Shown here: positions 20,718 through 35,127 of the stretch, piece after piece | Layout of the letters: each line of letters opens with the position of its first letter | Numbering within the stretch: position 1 is the stretch's first letter | Source of the DNA: Pseudobdellovibrionaceae bacterium | GTDB taxonomy: Bacteria > Bdellovibrionota > Bdellovibrionia > Bdellovibrionales > Bdellovibrionaceae | NCBI GenBank assembly: GCA_019637955.1 | Contig: JAHBUS010000005.1 | Coordinates: forward strand, 186,001-250,000 | Length of the DNA: 64,000 nucleotides | Reading direction: 5' to 3' | Program-made: the position numbers and the translations under genes | The notes under the pieces: generated by a model | Databases searched by the model: none | What the model was told of the DNA's origin: nothing | What the model saw: the letters and a program-made list of their open reading frames with translations, nothing else

Positions 20718-20726
20718 TTATCCACA
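20718..20726 (+). promoter_or_regulatory. Consensus DnaA box upstream of dnaA
   Basis: Perfect TTATCCACA, 26 bases before the dnaA GTG. It could mediate DnaA autoregulation or be part of a split origin. Confidence 0.7.
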
Positions 20727-20752: not shown

Positions 20753-22174
20753 GTGGAACCGATGGAACACAATCAAAGCGAGCTCAATGCCGAATTTTGG
20801 GACCTGATCAAATCAAGAATTAAAGCCCGCAATCAGGAAAACAAACTGGTTGAGAGCTGGATCAATCCCATTCATTACGTTGAAACCCAGGGGTCTCTCG
20901 AGGTCCCGCGCATGGTTTTAAGCGTTCCCAGCGAATTTCACCGCTATTACGTGGTGGAATCGTTGCTGGAGACCATCTATTCCGAAATTTCCGAGGTTCA
21001 TCGGGGCCCGTTTGAATTGGACGTCATTATTAAGACGGCTCACGACAAACCGGCTCAGATCGAATTAACGGCCTATTCAGAACAGCAGTTTCAGACCCGC
21101 CCCGCCCCGGTTTTACCCCCGGCGCCTCCGTCAGGTCCGAACTCCCTGGATTTTTTGAACGCCAACTACACCTTTTCCACGTTTGTGGTGGGCCGAAACT
21201 CCGAGTTTGCCCACGCGGCTTGCTACAACGTGGCCCGCAATCCTGGTGAAGGTTACAATCCCCTGCTGATTTCGGGTCCGACCGGAATGGGGAAAACCCA
21301 CTTGCTTCACGCGGTGGGACACGAAATTAAGAACAACTTTCCGCACCTGAAGATCCTTTATATCGCGGCTGAACGGTTTCTGAATGAGTGCATCTACGCT
21401 ATGCGGCATGATCAGATGAACGCCTTCCGGCACAAGTACCGCGACAACTGCGACATCTTGCTTGTGGATGACCTTCAATTTATTGGACGCGGCGAGGCCA
21501 CCCAAGAAGAGTTCTTTCATACGGTCAACTCGTTTATTGAACGCCGAAAACAAGTCGTCTTGGCAAGTGACCGAATGCCCAAGGATATTTTGAAACTCGA
21601 TGACCGGAATCGCTCGCGTTTAGAGTGGGGCCTCGTTGTCGACATCCAAATGCCTGACTTTGAGACCCGCGTGGCCATCCTTCGCTACAAAGCCGAAAAG
21701 ATGAGTATGCGTTTGACCGAGGACGTCGTTGAATACATCGCCCGGATATCCAAACGCTCCATCCGTGAACTTGAAGGCAATTTGAAGAAGGTAAAGATGT
21801 TTAGCGAGCTTCAGGGCCTTCCCATTGACTACTCACTGGCCAAACGAGTCCTGACTACTCACGAAACTCAGACCACGTTGTCGATGGAGGATGTTCAAAA
21901 GATGGTGGCGGACCACTTCAAAGTGAAGATGACCGACCTTAAGTCCTCGTCACGTGCGAAGGTGATCGTCGTTCCCCGCCAAATTTCGATGTACCTGATC
22001 AAGAAGCATCTCGACAAACCGCTCACCGAGATCGGCCGGATCTTCGGAGACCGTGATCACACCACGGTGATGAATGCGATCGAGCGGGTCCAAGATCTAC
22101 AGGCGAAGGACATGGAAATTAAAAGTGATCTCGAAGAGTTAACAACCCGAATCCACAACATCACAGGGCTGTGA
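20753..22174 (+). CDS. dnaA: Chromosomal replication initiator DnaA
   Basis: A 473-residue AAA+ initiator that binds DnaA boxes and melts the origin. Domain I occupies about 1-90 and a Pro-rich linker lies near 120-130. The ATPase domain III has Walker A GPTGMGKTHLL (about 177-187) and Walker B LLVDDLQFIG (about 236-245). DNA-binding domain IV carries the signature DRDHTTVMNAIERV near 433-446. The GTG at 20753 is chosen because GGAGGGG sits seven bases before it; the next ATG is three codons in. dnaN follows after a 217-base gap that looks like an origin. Confidence 0.99.
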   Translation: MEPMEHNQSELNAEFWDLIKSRIKARNQENKLVESWINPIHYVETQGSLEVPRMVLSVPSEFHRYYVVESLLETIYSEISEVHRGPFELDVIIKTAHDKPAQIELTAYSEQQFQTRPAPVLPPAPPSGPNSLDFLNANYTFSTFVVGRNSEFAHAACYNVARNPGEGYNPLLISGPTGMGKTHLLHAVGHEIKNNFPHLKILYIAAERFLNECIYAMRHDQMNAFRHKYRDNCDILLVDDLQFIGRGEATQEEFFHTVNSFIERRKQVVLASDRMPKDILKLDDRNRSRLEWGLVVDIQMPDFETRVAILRYKAEKMSMRLTEDVVEYIARISKRSIRELEGNLKKVKMFSELQGLPIDYSLAKRVLTTHETQTTLSMEDVQKMVADHFKVKMTDLKSSSRAKVIVVPRQISMYLIKKHLDKPLTEIGRIFGDRDHTTVMNAIERVQDLQAKDMEIKSDLEELTTRIHNITGL

Positions 22175-22391
22175 ATGGGGATTGTGGATTCAGCTGTGGA
22201 CAGACATGGGGTTCAAAATGTGGATCATTTTAATCCCCAAAAACGCAGCGGTTCGGGGCGATTTGTAAGACGCCTCTGTCCACGGGGTTTTCTAAGTGTT
22301 TACTTGTGGTTGCCTAGTTTGCTAGGTTTTCCTCGCCCCTACGACAACGACGAATTATTTAAATAAATAATAAGAAGAGTAAGGATGGGAC
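22149..22391. other. Candidate oriC (dnaA-dnaN intergenic region)
   Basis: Three sites share the ATCCACA core: GAATCCACA at 22149-22157 (plus, in the dnaA tail), and its inverted forms TGTGGATTC at 22183-22191 and TGTGGATCA at 22219-22227. Weaker sites with GTCCAC cores lie at 22195-22203 and 22276-22284. An AT-rich stretch (about 22350-22381, ATTATTTAAATAAATAATAA) at the right end could be the unwinding element. The position beside dnaA and the divergence of gene direction nearby support an origin. None of these boxes is a full TTATCCACA match. Confidence 0.6.
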
Positions 22392-30348: not shown

Positions 30349-30579
30349 ATGAAGCCGAATCGTTATCTTATTTTTGCCTCGATGGGCGTCGAACTTGTGG
30401 GTTTGATCATCGGTTGTTTGTTCATCGGCCAGGTGCTGGACGAAAAGTTCGGAACCAAAGGTTTGATGGTGATCTTTTTTTCGATCGCCAGCCTTGTCGG
30501 CTGGTTCGTTCATTTGATCTTCTTGCTCAAGCGGATCGACCGGATGGAAGAGCAGGATGCTAAGCGACCAAAGCTTTGA
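30349..30579 (+). CDS. AtpZ/AtpI-type small membrane protein of the F-ATPase
   Basis: A 76-residue protein with two membrane helices (about 7-28 and 40-61) separated by the short loop DEKFGTKG, a layout typical of the AtpZ/ATPase_gene1 family that accompanies F0 genes and helps c-ring assembly or ion uptake. It overlaps the upstream lipoprotein gene by four bases. It is separated from atpI-atpB-atpE by a LysR gene on the other strand and an unknown exported-protein gene. Its last 20 bases overlap the end of the LysR gene. Confidence 0.78.
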   Translation: MKPNRYLIFASMGVELVGLIIGCLFIGQVLDEKFGTKGLMVIFFSIASLVGWFVHLIFLLKRIDRMEEQDAKRPKL

Positions 30580-31429
30580 TCTTGGCCGTTTTTTCGGAGC
30601 CATTTCGGCAAATTGAGTAAATCGAAAATTTCAGGTCGCGGAACTCATGCTTGAGGCGCAGGTCTCCGGCGGCGACGTCCTGTTTGACGTAAGCCAGAGG
30701 CAGAAGCGCCATGGAGCCTGGCGTGAGCCGCAGCAGCTCTTTGAGGGCCTCGGCCGAGGCGACCTCTTGCACGCGAATTTCGCGGTTCTGCTTCTCGAGC
30801 CATTTCTTGACCGAAGACTGTTCCAAAAGCGAGGAGCTCAGCACGAAAAAGGGGGCTCCTTCAAGAAACCCCAAATCCCCCTTGGCCGAGCGCCGCTGTT
30901 TGAAACTCTCGACCACGGCGTAAGCGGAACTCTGGAGCTCTCGAATCATCAGCTTTCGTTCGGTGTTTTGGGAGGGGCGAGTGTTGCTGTAAACAACATC
31001 AAGCTTCCGTTCGAGCAGCCGTGGGACCAACTCTTGGAGGGGTCCCGATTCGATCTTGAAAGAGTCCCGATGCGCGCGCCATCGAGGTTGCAGAATCTTT
31101 TGTAGAGCATCCACCGGAAAATCCCACGCCAATCCCAACCGTGTGCGCTCCTCAAATTCTTGAGGAGCCTTCACGAGCGCCCGGAGCAAGTTTTCTCCGC
31201 CCGTGAAGATGTCATCGCAGTAGGACTTGGCCGTTTCCCCATCCGCCGTGAGCTCAAAAGTCTTGGGCCCGCGGACGATGAGTTTCTTTCCGATTTGTTT
31301 TTCGAGCGACTGAATTTGCAGGCTGACGGCGGACTGTGAAAGTCCCAGTTTCTTTGACGCCTTCGAAAAGCCGCGTTCATTCGCCGCCGTCCAGAAGTAG
31401 TAAAGATGCAAGTAGTTCAAACCCGTCAT
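30560..31429 (-). CDS. LysR-family transcriptional regulator (NhaR-like N-terminus)
   Basis: A 289-residue LysR regulator. The winged helix-turn-helix occupies about 5-64, with the reading helix SKASKKLGLSQSAVSLQIQS followed by LEKQIGKKLIVR. The opening LNYLHLYYFWTAANERG resembles NhaR, which controls a Na+/H+ antiporter in E. coli. The rest is a periplasmic-binding-like effector domain. No antiporter gene is adjacent. It is convergent with the AtpZ-like gene and divergent from the exported-protein gene across an AT-rich region. The effector and targets cannot be read from sequence. Confidence 0.9.
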   Translation of the reverse strand: MTGLNYLHLYYFWTAANERGFSKASKKLGLSQSAVSLQIQSLEKQIGKKLIVRGPKTFELTADGETAKSYCDDIFTGGENLLRALVKAPQEFEERTRLGLAWDFPVDALQKILQPRWRAHRDSFKIESGPLQELVPRLLERKLDVVYSNTRPSQNTERKLMIRELQSSAYAVVESFKQRRSAKGDLGFLEGAPFFVLSSSLLEQSSVKKWLEKQNREIRVQEVASAEALKELLRLTPGSMALLPLAYVKQDVAAGDLRLKHEFRDLKFSIYSICRNGSEKTAKIKALVA

Positions 31430-31540
31430 AAGTAAATGATTTATATTTTAAATACTAATTGCAACAACTATTTATAAAATAAATTCTTCCACAATGACCA
31501 CAAAGTTATCCACAGCGCTTGATGTGGAAAAGTTCTTGGA
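31430..31540. promoter_or_regulatory. AT-rich segment with three DnaA boxes between divergent genes
   Basis: About 31430-31485 is strikingly AT-rich compared with the surrounding GC-rich genes. Next to it are TCTTCCACA (31485-31493, one mismatch), a perfect TTATCCACA (31506-31514) and an inverted TGTGGAAAA (31523-31531, perfect to TTWTNCACA). It also must hold the promoters of the LysR gene and the exported-protein gene. It may be a DnaA titration/regulatory site, or part of an origin. Confidence 0.5.
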
Positions 31541-31570
31541 TTGCGTGGAGAAGTGCGCGAGATTGCGCTC

Positions 31571-32107
31571 ATGATTCAGATTCTTCTTTCAATTCTGGTG
31601 GCACCGGCTCTCGCACAGTTCGACTGCGCGGATTCAAAGCCGTTCAAAATCGTAGACACACAAAACGCGCACGTGGATGTCGCCCGCTTTTTCTGGACCG
31701 ATCAGGCCGGTCAAAAAATCGAAGACGCCGAAGAGATTTGTTCGATGACGGTGTCGATCCCGACCTACGATATTCGTGGCCGTGAAGAAGAGGCCTACTG
31801 GTGTCTCAAGGGTTCAAGCGACCAAGTGGTCTCATGTCCGATGATGATGGACGGTGAAAAATCGCAAGTTTTCGTCTTGCCGGCGGTTTGGATTCGGCAT
31901 TTGGCCACGGGAACCGATCTGCGCGATTCGCACTTTCATGCCTATGTCGTTTCTGAGGCGGTCCCCACAGCATTTCGCCAAGATGTTTTTGCGCGGGTTC
32001 AATTGGAAGATCTCAAGCCCGTCCCCCTTCGCCTGGACGGGGCTCATAAAGACGGCGAGCCGGCGTATCGCGACGGCTACTATGTCATGGTCCGTTTTCA
32101 GCCTTAA
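31571..32107 (+). CDS. Exported hypothetical protein
   Basis: A 178-residue protein with a short signal peptide (IQILLSILVAPALAQ) from the ATG at 31571; an in-frame start ten codons earlier is less likely. The mature part has four Cys (near 18, 58, 77 and 85) that could form disulfides, and no motif I recognise. It lies between the LysR regulator and atpI, downstream of the DnaA-box cluster. It may be under LysR control because of its divergent placement, but this is only positional. Confidence 0.65.
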   Translation: MIQILLSILVAPALAQFDCADSKPFKIVDTQNAHVDVARFFWTDQAGQKIEDAEEICSMTVSIPTYDIRGREEEAYWCLKGSSDQVVSCPMMMDGEKSQVFVLPAVWIRHLATGTDLRDSHFHAYVVSEAVPTAFRQDVFARVQLEDLKPVPLRLDGAHKDGEPAYRDGYYVMVRFQP

Positions 32108-32179: not shown

Positions 32180-32545
32180 ATGAAAAACTTTTTCCTGTTT
32201 CAGTTGGGTCTCTTGGCTGTCGGCAGCCTTCTCGTGGCTTGGATGACGGACTGGTATGGAGCGTTATCCTATGGAATTGGCTGCCTTTTCATCTTTGGCA
32301 GCTCGGCCTTGTCGGCCTGGCTTTGGAGCCGCCTGATCGCCAAAAAACTCGTTGCGGTCGCCCTTCTCATCATTGTATTCAAATATGCGATTTTCGGACT
32401 GATTTTGTACAAGATCCTGCTCACGAGCTGGATTCATCCTTTGGCCTTTTCGGCCGGGATTTCCAACATCGTGCTGGCCGCGCTCTTGGCGGCACTCACG
32501 TCTGAAGACAAAGACAATGCAGGTGAAGAACCTGCGGCCTCGTAA
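32180..32545 (+). CDS. atpI: ATP synthase subunit I (AtpI)-like membrane protein
   Basis: A 121-residue protein with four hydrophobic segments (about 7-22, 30-48, 55-77 and 86-104), the length and topology of AtpI, which assists c-ring assembly. The sequence family is poorly conserved; the assignment rests on topology and on its place 14 bases upstream of atpB and atpE. The 72 bases upstream hold no obvious gene. Confidence 0.78.
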   Translation: MKNFFLFQLGLLAVGSLLVAWMTDWYGALSYGIGCLFIFGSSALSAWLWSRLIAKKLVAVALLIIVFKYAIFGLILYKILLTSWIHPLAFSAGISNIVLAALLAALTSEDKDNAGEEPAAS

Positions 32546-32559
32546 AGGGAGTTGTTCAT

Positions 32560-33246
32560 ATGTCGTTTAGCTTTACCTCTTTGATTCCCGGTGTTGGTCA
32601 CGAGTACGCGCATGTTGCGACGGCTGGAATCGTAACGGCGGGCTTGGTTGGAACTGCTCTTGTTGCCCGCGCTCAGCTCGGCACCGGTGAAACGGCGGTG
32701 GTCCCCGCCTCTAAATTTTCGGTTCGTGGCTTCTTTGAATTTGTAACCGAATTCATCCAAGGCTTGGTCGACATGGTGATGGGACATGAGGGTCGCGCCT
32801 TCATTCCGCTCTTTGCCTCGGTTTTCACTTTCGTCCTGATCAATAACTTGGTGGGCGTGGTTCCGGGTATGACTCCCGCCACAGAAAATCTCAATACGAC
32901 TCTGGCCATGGGCCTGTTCATTTTCTTGTACTACAACTACTACGGCCTGAAAGAAAACGGCGTCAGTTACCTGAAGCACTTCTTGGGCCCGGTCTTGTGG
33001 CTTGGACCTTTGATGCTCGTCATCGAGCTGATTTCGCATTTTGTTCGCCCTGTTTCTCTCGGTCTTCGTTTGGCCAACGTCATGCGTGGTGACCACACGG
33101 TTGTTGGCATCTTCTTGGACCTCGTACCTTTGGCGCTGCCGATTCCGTTCTACATCCTCGGAATCTTCGTTTGCTTTGTTCAGGCCTTCGTTTTCACTTT
33201 GCTGTCGATGGTCTACGTCGCGATGGCAACAGCTCACGACCACTAA
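32560..33246 (+). CDS. atpB: ATP synthase F0 a subunit
   Basis: A 228-residue stator channel subunit. The essential Arg is in the helix LISHFVRPVSLGLRLANVM (about 154-172), aligned with the RPLSLSLRL helix of other a subunits. The C-terminal helices (GIFVCFVQAFVFTLLSMVY) carry the conserved Gln of the proton half-channel. It is preceded by an AGGGAG ribosome site and is co-directional with atpI and atpE. Confidence 0.97.
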   Translation: MSFSFTSLIPGVGHEYAHVATAGIVTAGLVGTALVARAQLGTGETAVVPASKFSVRGFFEFVTEFIQGLVDMVMGHEGRAFIPLFASVFTFVLINNLVGVVPGMTPATENLNTTLAMGLFIFLYYNYYGLKENGVSYLKHFLGPVLWLGPLMLVIELISHFVRPVSLGLRLANVMRGDHTVVGIFLDLVPLALPIPFYILGIFVCFVQAFVFTLLSMVYVAMATAHDH

Positions 33247-33300
33247 TTTTTAGATAACAACGCACCCGAGAGAACGGGCGCATCACACAAGGGAGTTCAC

Positions 33301-33609
33301 ATGAAAAAATATTTGGTTCTGGCAGCGACTCTGCTGGCATCGACTGCGGCTTTCGCACAAGACGCAGCGGCTTCAACTTCGATCAACGGCGGCTTGGCTG
33401 CTTTGGGCGCGGGTCTGGCCATCGGTATCGCGGCTTTGGGCGGCGCTTTCGGCCAAGCTAAAACTGCAACTGCAGCTTTGGACGGCATCGCGCGCAACCC
33501 CGCTGCTCAAGGTAAAATCTTCACGCCCATGATCATCGGTCTGGCTCTGATCGAGTCGCTCGTGATCTACGCGTTCGTTATCGCGTTCTTCCTCCAAGGA
33601 AAAATGTAA
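33301..33609 (+). CDS. atpE: ATP synthase F0 c subunit with N-terminal leader
   Basis: A 102-residue c subunit that forms the rotor ring. It begins with a leader ([19 protein letters not shown]) absent from E. coli AtpE. Helix 1 contains [18 protein letters not shown] and the polar loop ARNPAAQGK. Helix 2 carries the ion-binding Glu in [17 protein letters not shown]. Aligned with the Na+-binding ring of Ilyobacter, the Gln, Glu, Ser and Tyr ligand positions are kept, but the following Thr is Leu. H+ versus Na+ specificity is therefore unclear. A strong terminator follows. Confidence 0.97.
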
Positions 33610-33759: not shown

Positions 33760-35127
33760 CTAGAGCAGCGGATTGACGATGGATTCGACTTGCGAGCGGA
33801 TGCGTTTGAGACCGGCTTCAGTTTCAGACTCGAAACGCAAAACCAGTACGGGCTGCGTGTTCGACGATCGCGCGAGTGCCCAACCATCGGGGAAGCTGAT
33901 GCGAACACCGTCGATCAGATTCAACTTGTAGTCTTTGCCACCCTCAGGGAACGCGGCCTTGAGTTTTTCGACGATCAAGACCTTTTTCTCTTCGGTCGTA
34001 TCGATTCGAAGCTCGGGCGTGTTGTGCGCCTCGGGAAGGCCCTCAAGCAGCTCAGGAATGGTCTTGCCGGTTTTCGACAAGATCTCACACACGCGAAGAG
34101 CCGCATAAAGCGCGTCGTCGTAGCCGTAGTTGCGATCCGCGAAGAAGATGTGCCCGCTCATCTCGCCGCCAAAGGGAGCCTTGTCCACCTTGATCTTTTC
34201 TTTAATCAGCGAGTGGCCGGTCTTCCACATCACGGGAACGCCGCCGTTTTTCTTAATGTCATCAAAGAGTCGGTCTGAGCACTTCACATCGCCGATGATT
34301 TTCGCACCCTTGTTGTTTTTCAAGACGTCGCGGCTCACCAATACCATGAGCTCATCGCCATAAATCATTCGGCCCGTATGATCGACGAGACCGATACGGT
34401 CGGCATCGCCATCAAAGCCAATGCCGACAACCGCACCTTCTTTGAGAACTTGTTTTTTAAGATCCACCAAATTTTTCTCGACCGTGGGATCGGGGTGGTG
34501 ATTGGGAAAGCGGCCATCCGGTTCTTCAAACAAGATGGTGGGCTTGAGGCCGACAGTTTCAAAAAGACGACGCACGATGCATCCGCCGGCGCCGTTTCCG
34601 CAATCCAGAACGACTTTGATCGGTTTCAGCTCGCCGAACTCTTTCTTATAGCGCGCCAGGTACTGCGGGAAGATGTCGATCTTTTCCTCGGAACCTTTTC
34701 CTTCGGGAAAAATGCCCTTTTCCATGATCCGGCGGAGCTCTTGAATCTCTTCACCGAAGATGGTTCCTTTGCCGACCGAAACTTTGAAGCCGTTGTACTC
34801 GGGAGGATTGTGCGAACCGGTGACCATGAAGGCGCCGTCGACGCCCGGGAGGTCAAAAGTGGCGTAGTAAGAAATAGGCGAAGTGACCAGACCTAAGTAT
34901 TTTACGTGCACGCCGCATTCTTGCAGGCCGCGCGAAAGGGCTTCTTTGATTTCAAGCCCCGACGAGCGCGCGTCGTGTCCCAGGGCGATCGTGGGATTCT
35001 TTTTGCCGAGTTTGAGCAGCATGTACTGCGCGTAGGATTTCGCGAGGAGGTAGGCGAAGTCTTTGTCGAACTGTTCGTTGTAAACGCCGCGAATGTCGTA
35101 CTCGCGGAAAATGACGGGTTGATACAC
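33760..35127 (-). CDS. Phosphomannomutase/phosphoglucomutase
   Basis: A 455-residue alpha-D-phosphohexomutase, interconverting hexose 1- and 6-phosphates for surface polysaccharide precursors. The start VYQPVIFREYDIRG is typical of the AlgC/ManB group. The phosphoserine loop TGSHNPPEYNG is near 98-108, the metal loop DGDADR near 240, the sugar-binding loop GEMSGH near 320 and the phosphate loop RSSNTQPVLVLR near 420. The GTG at 35127 is chosen because AAGGGA sits six bases upstream and it lies just past the pdxA stop; an in-frame ATG 17 codons earlier lies inside pdxA. Confidence 0.93.
   Translation of the reverse strand: MYQPVIFREYDIRGVYNEQFDKDFAYLLAKSYAQYMLLKLGKKNPTIALGHDARSSGLEIKEALSRGLQECGVHVKYLGLVTSPISYYATFDLPGVDGAFMVTGSHNPPEYNGFKVSVGKGTIFGEEIQELRRIMEKGIFPEGKGSEEKIDIFPQYLARYKKEFGELKPIKVVLDCGNGAGGCIVRRLFETVGLKPTILFEEPDGRFPNHHPDPTVEKNLVDLKKQVLKEGAVVGIGFDGDADRIGLVDHTGRMIYGDELMVLVSRDVLKNNKGAKIIGDVKCSDRLFDDIKKNGGVPVMWKTGHSLIKEKIKVDKAPFGGEMSGHIFFADRNYGYDDALYAALRVCEILSKTGKTIPELLEGLPEAHNTPELRIDTTEEKKVLIVEKLKAAFPEGGKDYKLNLIDGVRISFPDGWALARSSNTQPVLVLRFESETEAGLKRIRSQVESIVNPLL

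Follow-up and report, generated by a model that had tools for sequence, protein, structure and literature searches.

An extra-oriC cluster of candidate DnaA boxes beside a predicted LysR operator in a Pseudobdellovibrionaceae bacterium

The intergenic DNA between a LysR-type regulator gene and a small exported-protein gene in a Pseudobdellovibrionaceae genome contains three DnaA boxes, located about 9 kb from the true oriC within the stretch analysed here (64,000 nucleotides, hereafter the window). The cluster is best explained as an extra-oriC group of boxes beside a LysR operator, from which DnaA is predicted to modulate the rightward transcript and where its titration would be incidental, and not as an origin; for this explanation as a whole we see about an even chance. 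Statements on the entire genome (3.77 Mb in 14 contigs) derive from pattern searches and from 205 kb of the contig, and the coordinates of the features are collected in Table 1.

Table 1 Features of the DnaA-box cluster, the neighboring genes and the canonical origin in the window.
Feature	Position	Strand	Remarks
Canonical oriC	22149-22390	+	Boxes at 22149, 22183, 22195, 22219 and 22276, and the trio side
oriC trio side			Box TTTTCCTCG at 22327-22335, GC run, trios TACGACAACGACGA at 22340-22353, AT-rich unwinding element
atpZ-like gene (ATPase_gene1)	30349-30579	+	Separated from atpI by the LysR/exported-protein insertion
LysR-type regulator gene	30560-31429	-	Pfam HTH_1 and LysR_substrate; transcribed away from the control region
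Operator dyad ATTTAAAATATAAAT (T-N11-A)	31439-31453	-	Starts 24 bp upstream of the LysR start codon
Second T-N11-A dyad ATTTATTTTATAAAT	31470-31484	-	31 bp from the first dyad
DnaA box TCTTCCACA	31485-31493	+	Fits Bdellovibrio NNWTCCACA; one mismatch to TTWTNCACA
GACCACA	31496-31502	+	Weak half-like site among the boxes, from the sequence
DnaA box TTATCCACA	31506-31514	+	Perfect E. coli-type box
DnaA box TTTTCCACA	31523-31531	-	Inverted pair with the 31506 box, TCCACA-N8-TGTGGA
Small exported-protein gene	31541-32107	+	TTG 31541 or, more probably, ATG 31572 as start codon; without family match
atpI, atpB and atpE-like genes	32180-33609	+	Downstream of the exported-protein gene

The original prediction had placed three boxes between the LysR and the exported-protein genes, next to an AT-rich flank, and these were recovered exactly where it had put them, as were the perfect matches of two of the three (TTATCCACA and TTTTCCACA) to the E. 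coli consensus TTWTNCACA. The DnaA-box consensus of Bdellovibrio bacteriovorus, established by footprinting, is NN(A/T)TCCACA (PMC5124646), and all three boxes, which span 47 bp of intergenic DNA, conform to it. The flank to the left of the boxes, 31430-31485, has an A+T content of 87.5%, and within the 205 kb of contig the 50-mer richest in A+T is found at 31439-31488 (44 of 50 bases), with the least stable 50-mer in terms of duplex stability starting at 31433.

Triples of this kind are rare. NNWTCCACA occurs at 44 sites in the 205 kb and only once as a triple within 60 bp, namely at 31485-31531, where the Poisson expectation is 0.0036 triples per 205 kb and about 0.07 for the whole genome; the boxes are packed more densely than chance predicts, a feature expected of a bacterial oriC. 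The pattern TTCCACA-N(0-30)-TTATCCACA has a single occurrence genome-wide, and in the dnaA-to-atp regions of relatives (321 kb) NNWTCCACA triples are confined to oriC. The cluster is nevertheless not regarded as beyond chance, because E. coli-type boxes show no genome-wide enrichment (137 matches to TTWTNCACA vs 133 for the reversed control) and pairs of them are also present at a few other places, where pairing exceeds the Poisson expectation. It is unusual, yet within reach of a whole-genome chance event, and may possibly have arisen by chance or drift. Among the genomes of the family, 35 of 66 (e.g. G018, G022, G004 and G032) contain TTATCCACA-N(3-30)-TGTGGA pairs, far above the reversed control, and these fall in oriC, in one repeated element, in coding DNA and at a few intergenic places; as the sites have no common context, the pairs were left out of the evidence.

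The AT-rich flank, as judged from comparison with related regulators, is the promoter/operator of a LysR subfamily. It contains two perfect ATTTA-N5-TAAAT dyads at a spacing of 31 bp, and such twin dyads with the same arms appear in 0.025% of dinucleotide shuffles of the AT-rich stretch, while ATAAAT-N25-ATAAAT is found once in the genome, at the LysR promoter. A phylum-wide search with the LysR protein returned 11 close-relative loci (L124-L134, 27-35% identity), each with an ATC-N9-GAT motif 25-30 bp ahead of its LysR start codon (mean of 0.22 of 11 in shuffles, maximum 2), and the window dyad ATTTAAAATATAAAT aligns with this motif. Farther upstream the aligned relatives have another ATAAAT-like block, and in four of the 11 the 31-bp repeat is exact; ATC-N9-GAT is absent in seven less similar LysR genes. 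A scan of genome contigs for the LysR protein gave only a distant match.

A divergent layout and T-N11-A sites are typical of LysR-type regulators (PMC6018408), and T-N11-A dyads common to the relatives are likewise found in the window. The window has in common with known divergent LysR promoters (PMC6018408) a divergent regulator gene and two 15-bp T-N11-A dyads in a shared control region, and differs from them in the DnaA-box cluster added beside the operators and in the putative target, which is an orphan exported protein and possibly the atp genes. Segment 31437-31485 is thus most likely the LysR promoter, with predicted autoregulation and control of the divergent gene, as supported by the comparison. 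The regulated promoter that had been among the original suggestions therefore gains support, with the boxes directly adjoining a conserved LysR-subfamily promoter/operator, and since the AT-rich flank is conserved in that capacity, no replication role is needed to account for it. No DnaA-box cluster was found upstream of the 11 LysR relatives, where L129 and L130 have single ATCCACA matches, located in or at the neighboring gene. Binding of LysR itself at the DnaA-box dyad was also considered and rejected, as TCCACA-N8-TGTGGA is not a T-N11-A site and the promoters of the relatives are devoid of such a dyad.

The true oriC, by its layout and alignment, is the dnaA-dnaN gap, which is alignable over its full length with 17 relatives and lies in the gene order yidC-rnpA-dnaA-dnaN-recF-gyrB-gyrA, an order that, together with the relatives, suggests membership in the Bdellovibrio group. 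In B. bacteriovorus the experimentally characterized oriC likewise occupies the dnaA-dnaN gap and comprises eight binding sites as well as DnaA-trios (PMC5124646), and its counterpart in the window is 22149-22390; the 31.5-kb cluster resembles it in the box consensus and in the AT-rich DNA adjoining the boxes, but has no trios and is placed in a LysR promoter. In the family layout, one box falls within the 3′ end of dnaA; further on come three leftward boxes, at +34, +46 and +70, and a rightward one at +127. The trio side then opens with a box of the TTTTCCACG type, and beyond a GC run there are CTACTACTACTA trios and the AT-rich element. This arrangement is retained in the window with some decay, the unwinding side being more diverged than in most relatives, with CTGTCCACG (at +127) in place of TTATCCACA, TTTTCCTCG in place of TTTTCCACG and TACGACAACGACGA in place of TAC repeats. 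The search for a box followed by a GC spacer and trios had its sole match in 205 kb at 22327. The GC skew has a broad and shallow minimum at about 5-36 kb of the window, lowest at 34483, and is too flat to discriminate between 22.3 and 31.5 kb.

That the dnaA-dnaN gap has only relaxed matches, as initially reported, is correct under the E. coli consensus and incorrect under that of Bdellovibrio, which is matched in full at 22149, 22183 and 22219 (dnaA 3′ end and dnaA-dnaN gap); further boxes are CTGTCCACA (22195, minus strand), CTGTCCACG (22276, plus strand) and the trio-adjacent TTTTCCTCG (22327). The apparent lack of full matches is a consequence of the E. coli consensus having been used, and this consensus undercounts boxes in the true oriC of the Bdellovibrio lineage. 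A separate perfect box TTATCCACA (20718-20726) precedes the dnaA start by about 30 bp, at a position where relatives have boxes only sometimes, and is a possible autoregulation site of dnaA.

In the compared relatives a TPR gene, a small atpZ-like gene, atpI and atpB are adjacent, whereas the window has the order atpZ-like (+), LysR (-), exported-protein (+) and atpI-atpB-atpE. Neither the LysR/exported-protein pair nor a box cluster is found between TPR/atpZ and atpI in the dnaA-to-atp regions of these relatives, and searches for relatives returned no other member of the genus of the window. Since the gene pair is absent from the relatives, it was most likely inserted in the window lineage, splitting atpZ from atpI, and the boxes, found only together with the pair, would thus be lineage-specific. 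In the comparison across relatives that had been proposed for the intergenic region, both the cluster and the gene pair are missing, no relative having the control region in which conservation of the boxes could be assessed. Among 144 genomes of the class, the exported protein has a single further homologue (G007, 36%), located elsewhere and with no LysR gene beside it. An arrangement resembling that of the window is seen in another genus (G067, L122:2246-2280), where a palindrome TTATCCACA-N17-TGTGGATAA stands between divergent LysR-type and small exported-protein genes, although close kinship of these genes to those of the window is not established.

In the proposed mechanism, 31430-31571 would function as a divergent control region, with the LysR gene read leftward and the exported-protein gene rightward. 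The boxes at 31485-31531 separate the LysR operator from the exported-protein gene, in a place where the promoter or 5′ leader of the latter would have to be, and for this reason bound DnaA is predicted to repress or modulate the rightward transcript. Binding itself can be expected because the helix-turn-helix DNA-binding domain of DnaA is intact (Bac_DnaA_C) and the boxes conform to the consensus measured in Bdellovibrio. The rightward transcript probably continues into atpI-B-E, and as the 72-bp gap from the exported-protein gene to atpI has no terminator or promoter match, these genes may be read from the 31430-31571 control region. In addition, the cluster would, as a side effect, retain a few DnaA molecules in the vicinity of oriC, as any such cluster should by the B. 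subtilis precedent (PMC5295017). A sigma-70 promoter scan of the LysR/exported-protein gap gave no match, the terminator scan of the gap gave one terminator-like site, located inside the LysR gene, and Rfam had no match at 30.3-32.3 kb.

A different role for the site would be that of a second part of the origin, forming a bipartite oriC, or of a second origin, with 31430-31485 as the unwinding element. The lowest duplex stability and the highest A+T in 205 kb do adjoin the sole extra-oriC triple, the broad GC-skew minimum includes the 31.5-kb site, and in the window the canonical oriC has somewhat degenerate boxes. However, the cluster has no DnaA-trio element, trios being present in the 205 kb only at 22327, and the box nearest to the AT-rich stretch (TCTTCCACA at 31485) has its CACA end facing away from 31430-31484. 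The AT-rich stretch is otherwise explained as a LysR promoter that is conserved in genomes with no boxes there, and the relatives have a conserved dnaA-dnaN origin and are without the gene pair and the cluster, the window itself possessing a complete oriC in the same gap. Moreover, known bipartite origins flank dnaA. An origin function at 31.5 kb, which had been raised at the outset, is on these grounds very improbable.

It is also unlikely that the cluster mainly titrates DnaA, its promoter location being incidental, in the manner of the B. subtilis clusters or E. coli datA. The datA locus comprises five DnaA boxes and an IHF site, more than the three boxes in 47 bp seen here. The window does have several strong boxes outside oriC, two of them matching TTWTNCACA, which at 9 kb from oriC would be doubled early after initiation; the rarity of the cluster as the sole triple in 205 kb also speaks for titration, and so does the precedent of B. 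subtilis, where removal of six extra-oriC clusters leads to early initiation (PMC5295017). Several strong intergenic boxes near but outside oriC are thus common to these systems and the window (PMC5295017), but the window cluster is limited to three boxes and is conserved in no relative, and the sequence alone does not separate titration from plain promoter control. Somewhat unlikely, finally, is that the boxes are fortuitous or have another role, as arms of an RNA leader hairpin or as the operator of another repressor, or that DnaA binds them with no effect. The lack of conservation and of genome-wide TTWTNCACA enrichment is consistent with such an account, as are the inverted TTATCCACA/TGTGGA pairs scattered in relatives, often in coding DNA; the DnaA-box dyad also folds as RNA (leader folding z = -1.98) and could therefore be a leader hairpin instead. 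Against it are the occurrence of three Bdellovibrio-type boxes in 47 bp of intergenic DNA, which in 321 kb of relatives is otherwise seen in oriC only, and the match of two boxes to the strong E. coli type.

If DnaA acts at 31485-31531, the site would represent a DnaA-controlled promoter in the Bdellovibrio lineage, upstream of ATP-synthase genes; to our knowledge, almost nothing is known of DnaA outside oriC in this lineage. Otherwise the value of the case is corrective, showing that DNA rich in A+T next to DnaA boxes does not have to serve for unwinding. An extension of the preferred explanation, namely that after the operon split atpI-B-E came jointly under LysR and DnaA, which would couple the ATP-synthase membrane subunits to the replication initiator, is quite unlikely; the subfamily of the LysR in question occurs next to transporters of inorganic carbon or protons. 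Some of the closest LysR relatives (L124-L134) are transcribed divergently from the gene of an SbtA-like bicarbonate transporter (Sbt_1), which is accompanied by a P-II-like gene, and others from that of a proton-antiporter-type membrane protein (Proton_antipo_M, DabB-like). The window genome also has an SbtA gene, at C9:296908-297837, which adjoins another LysR gene.
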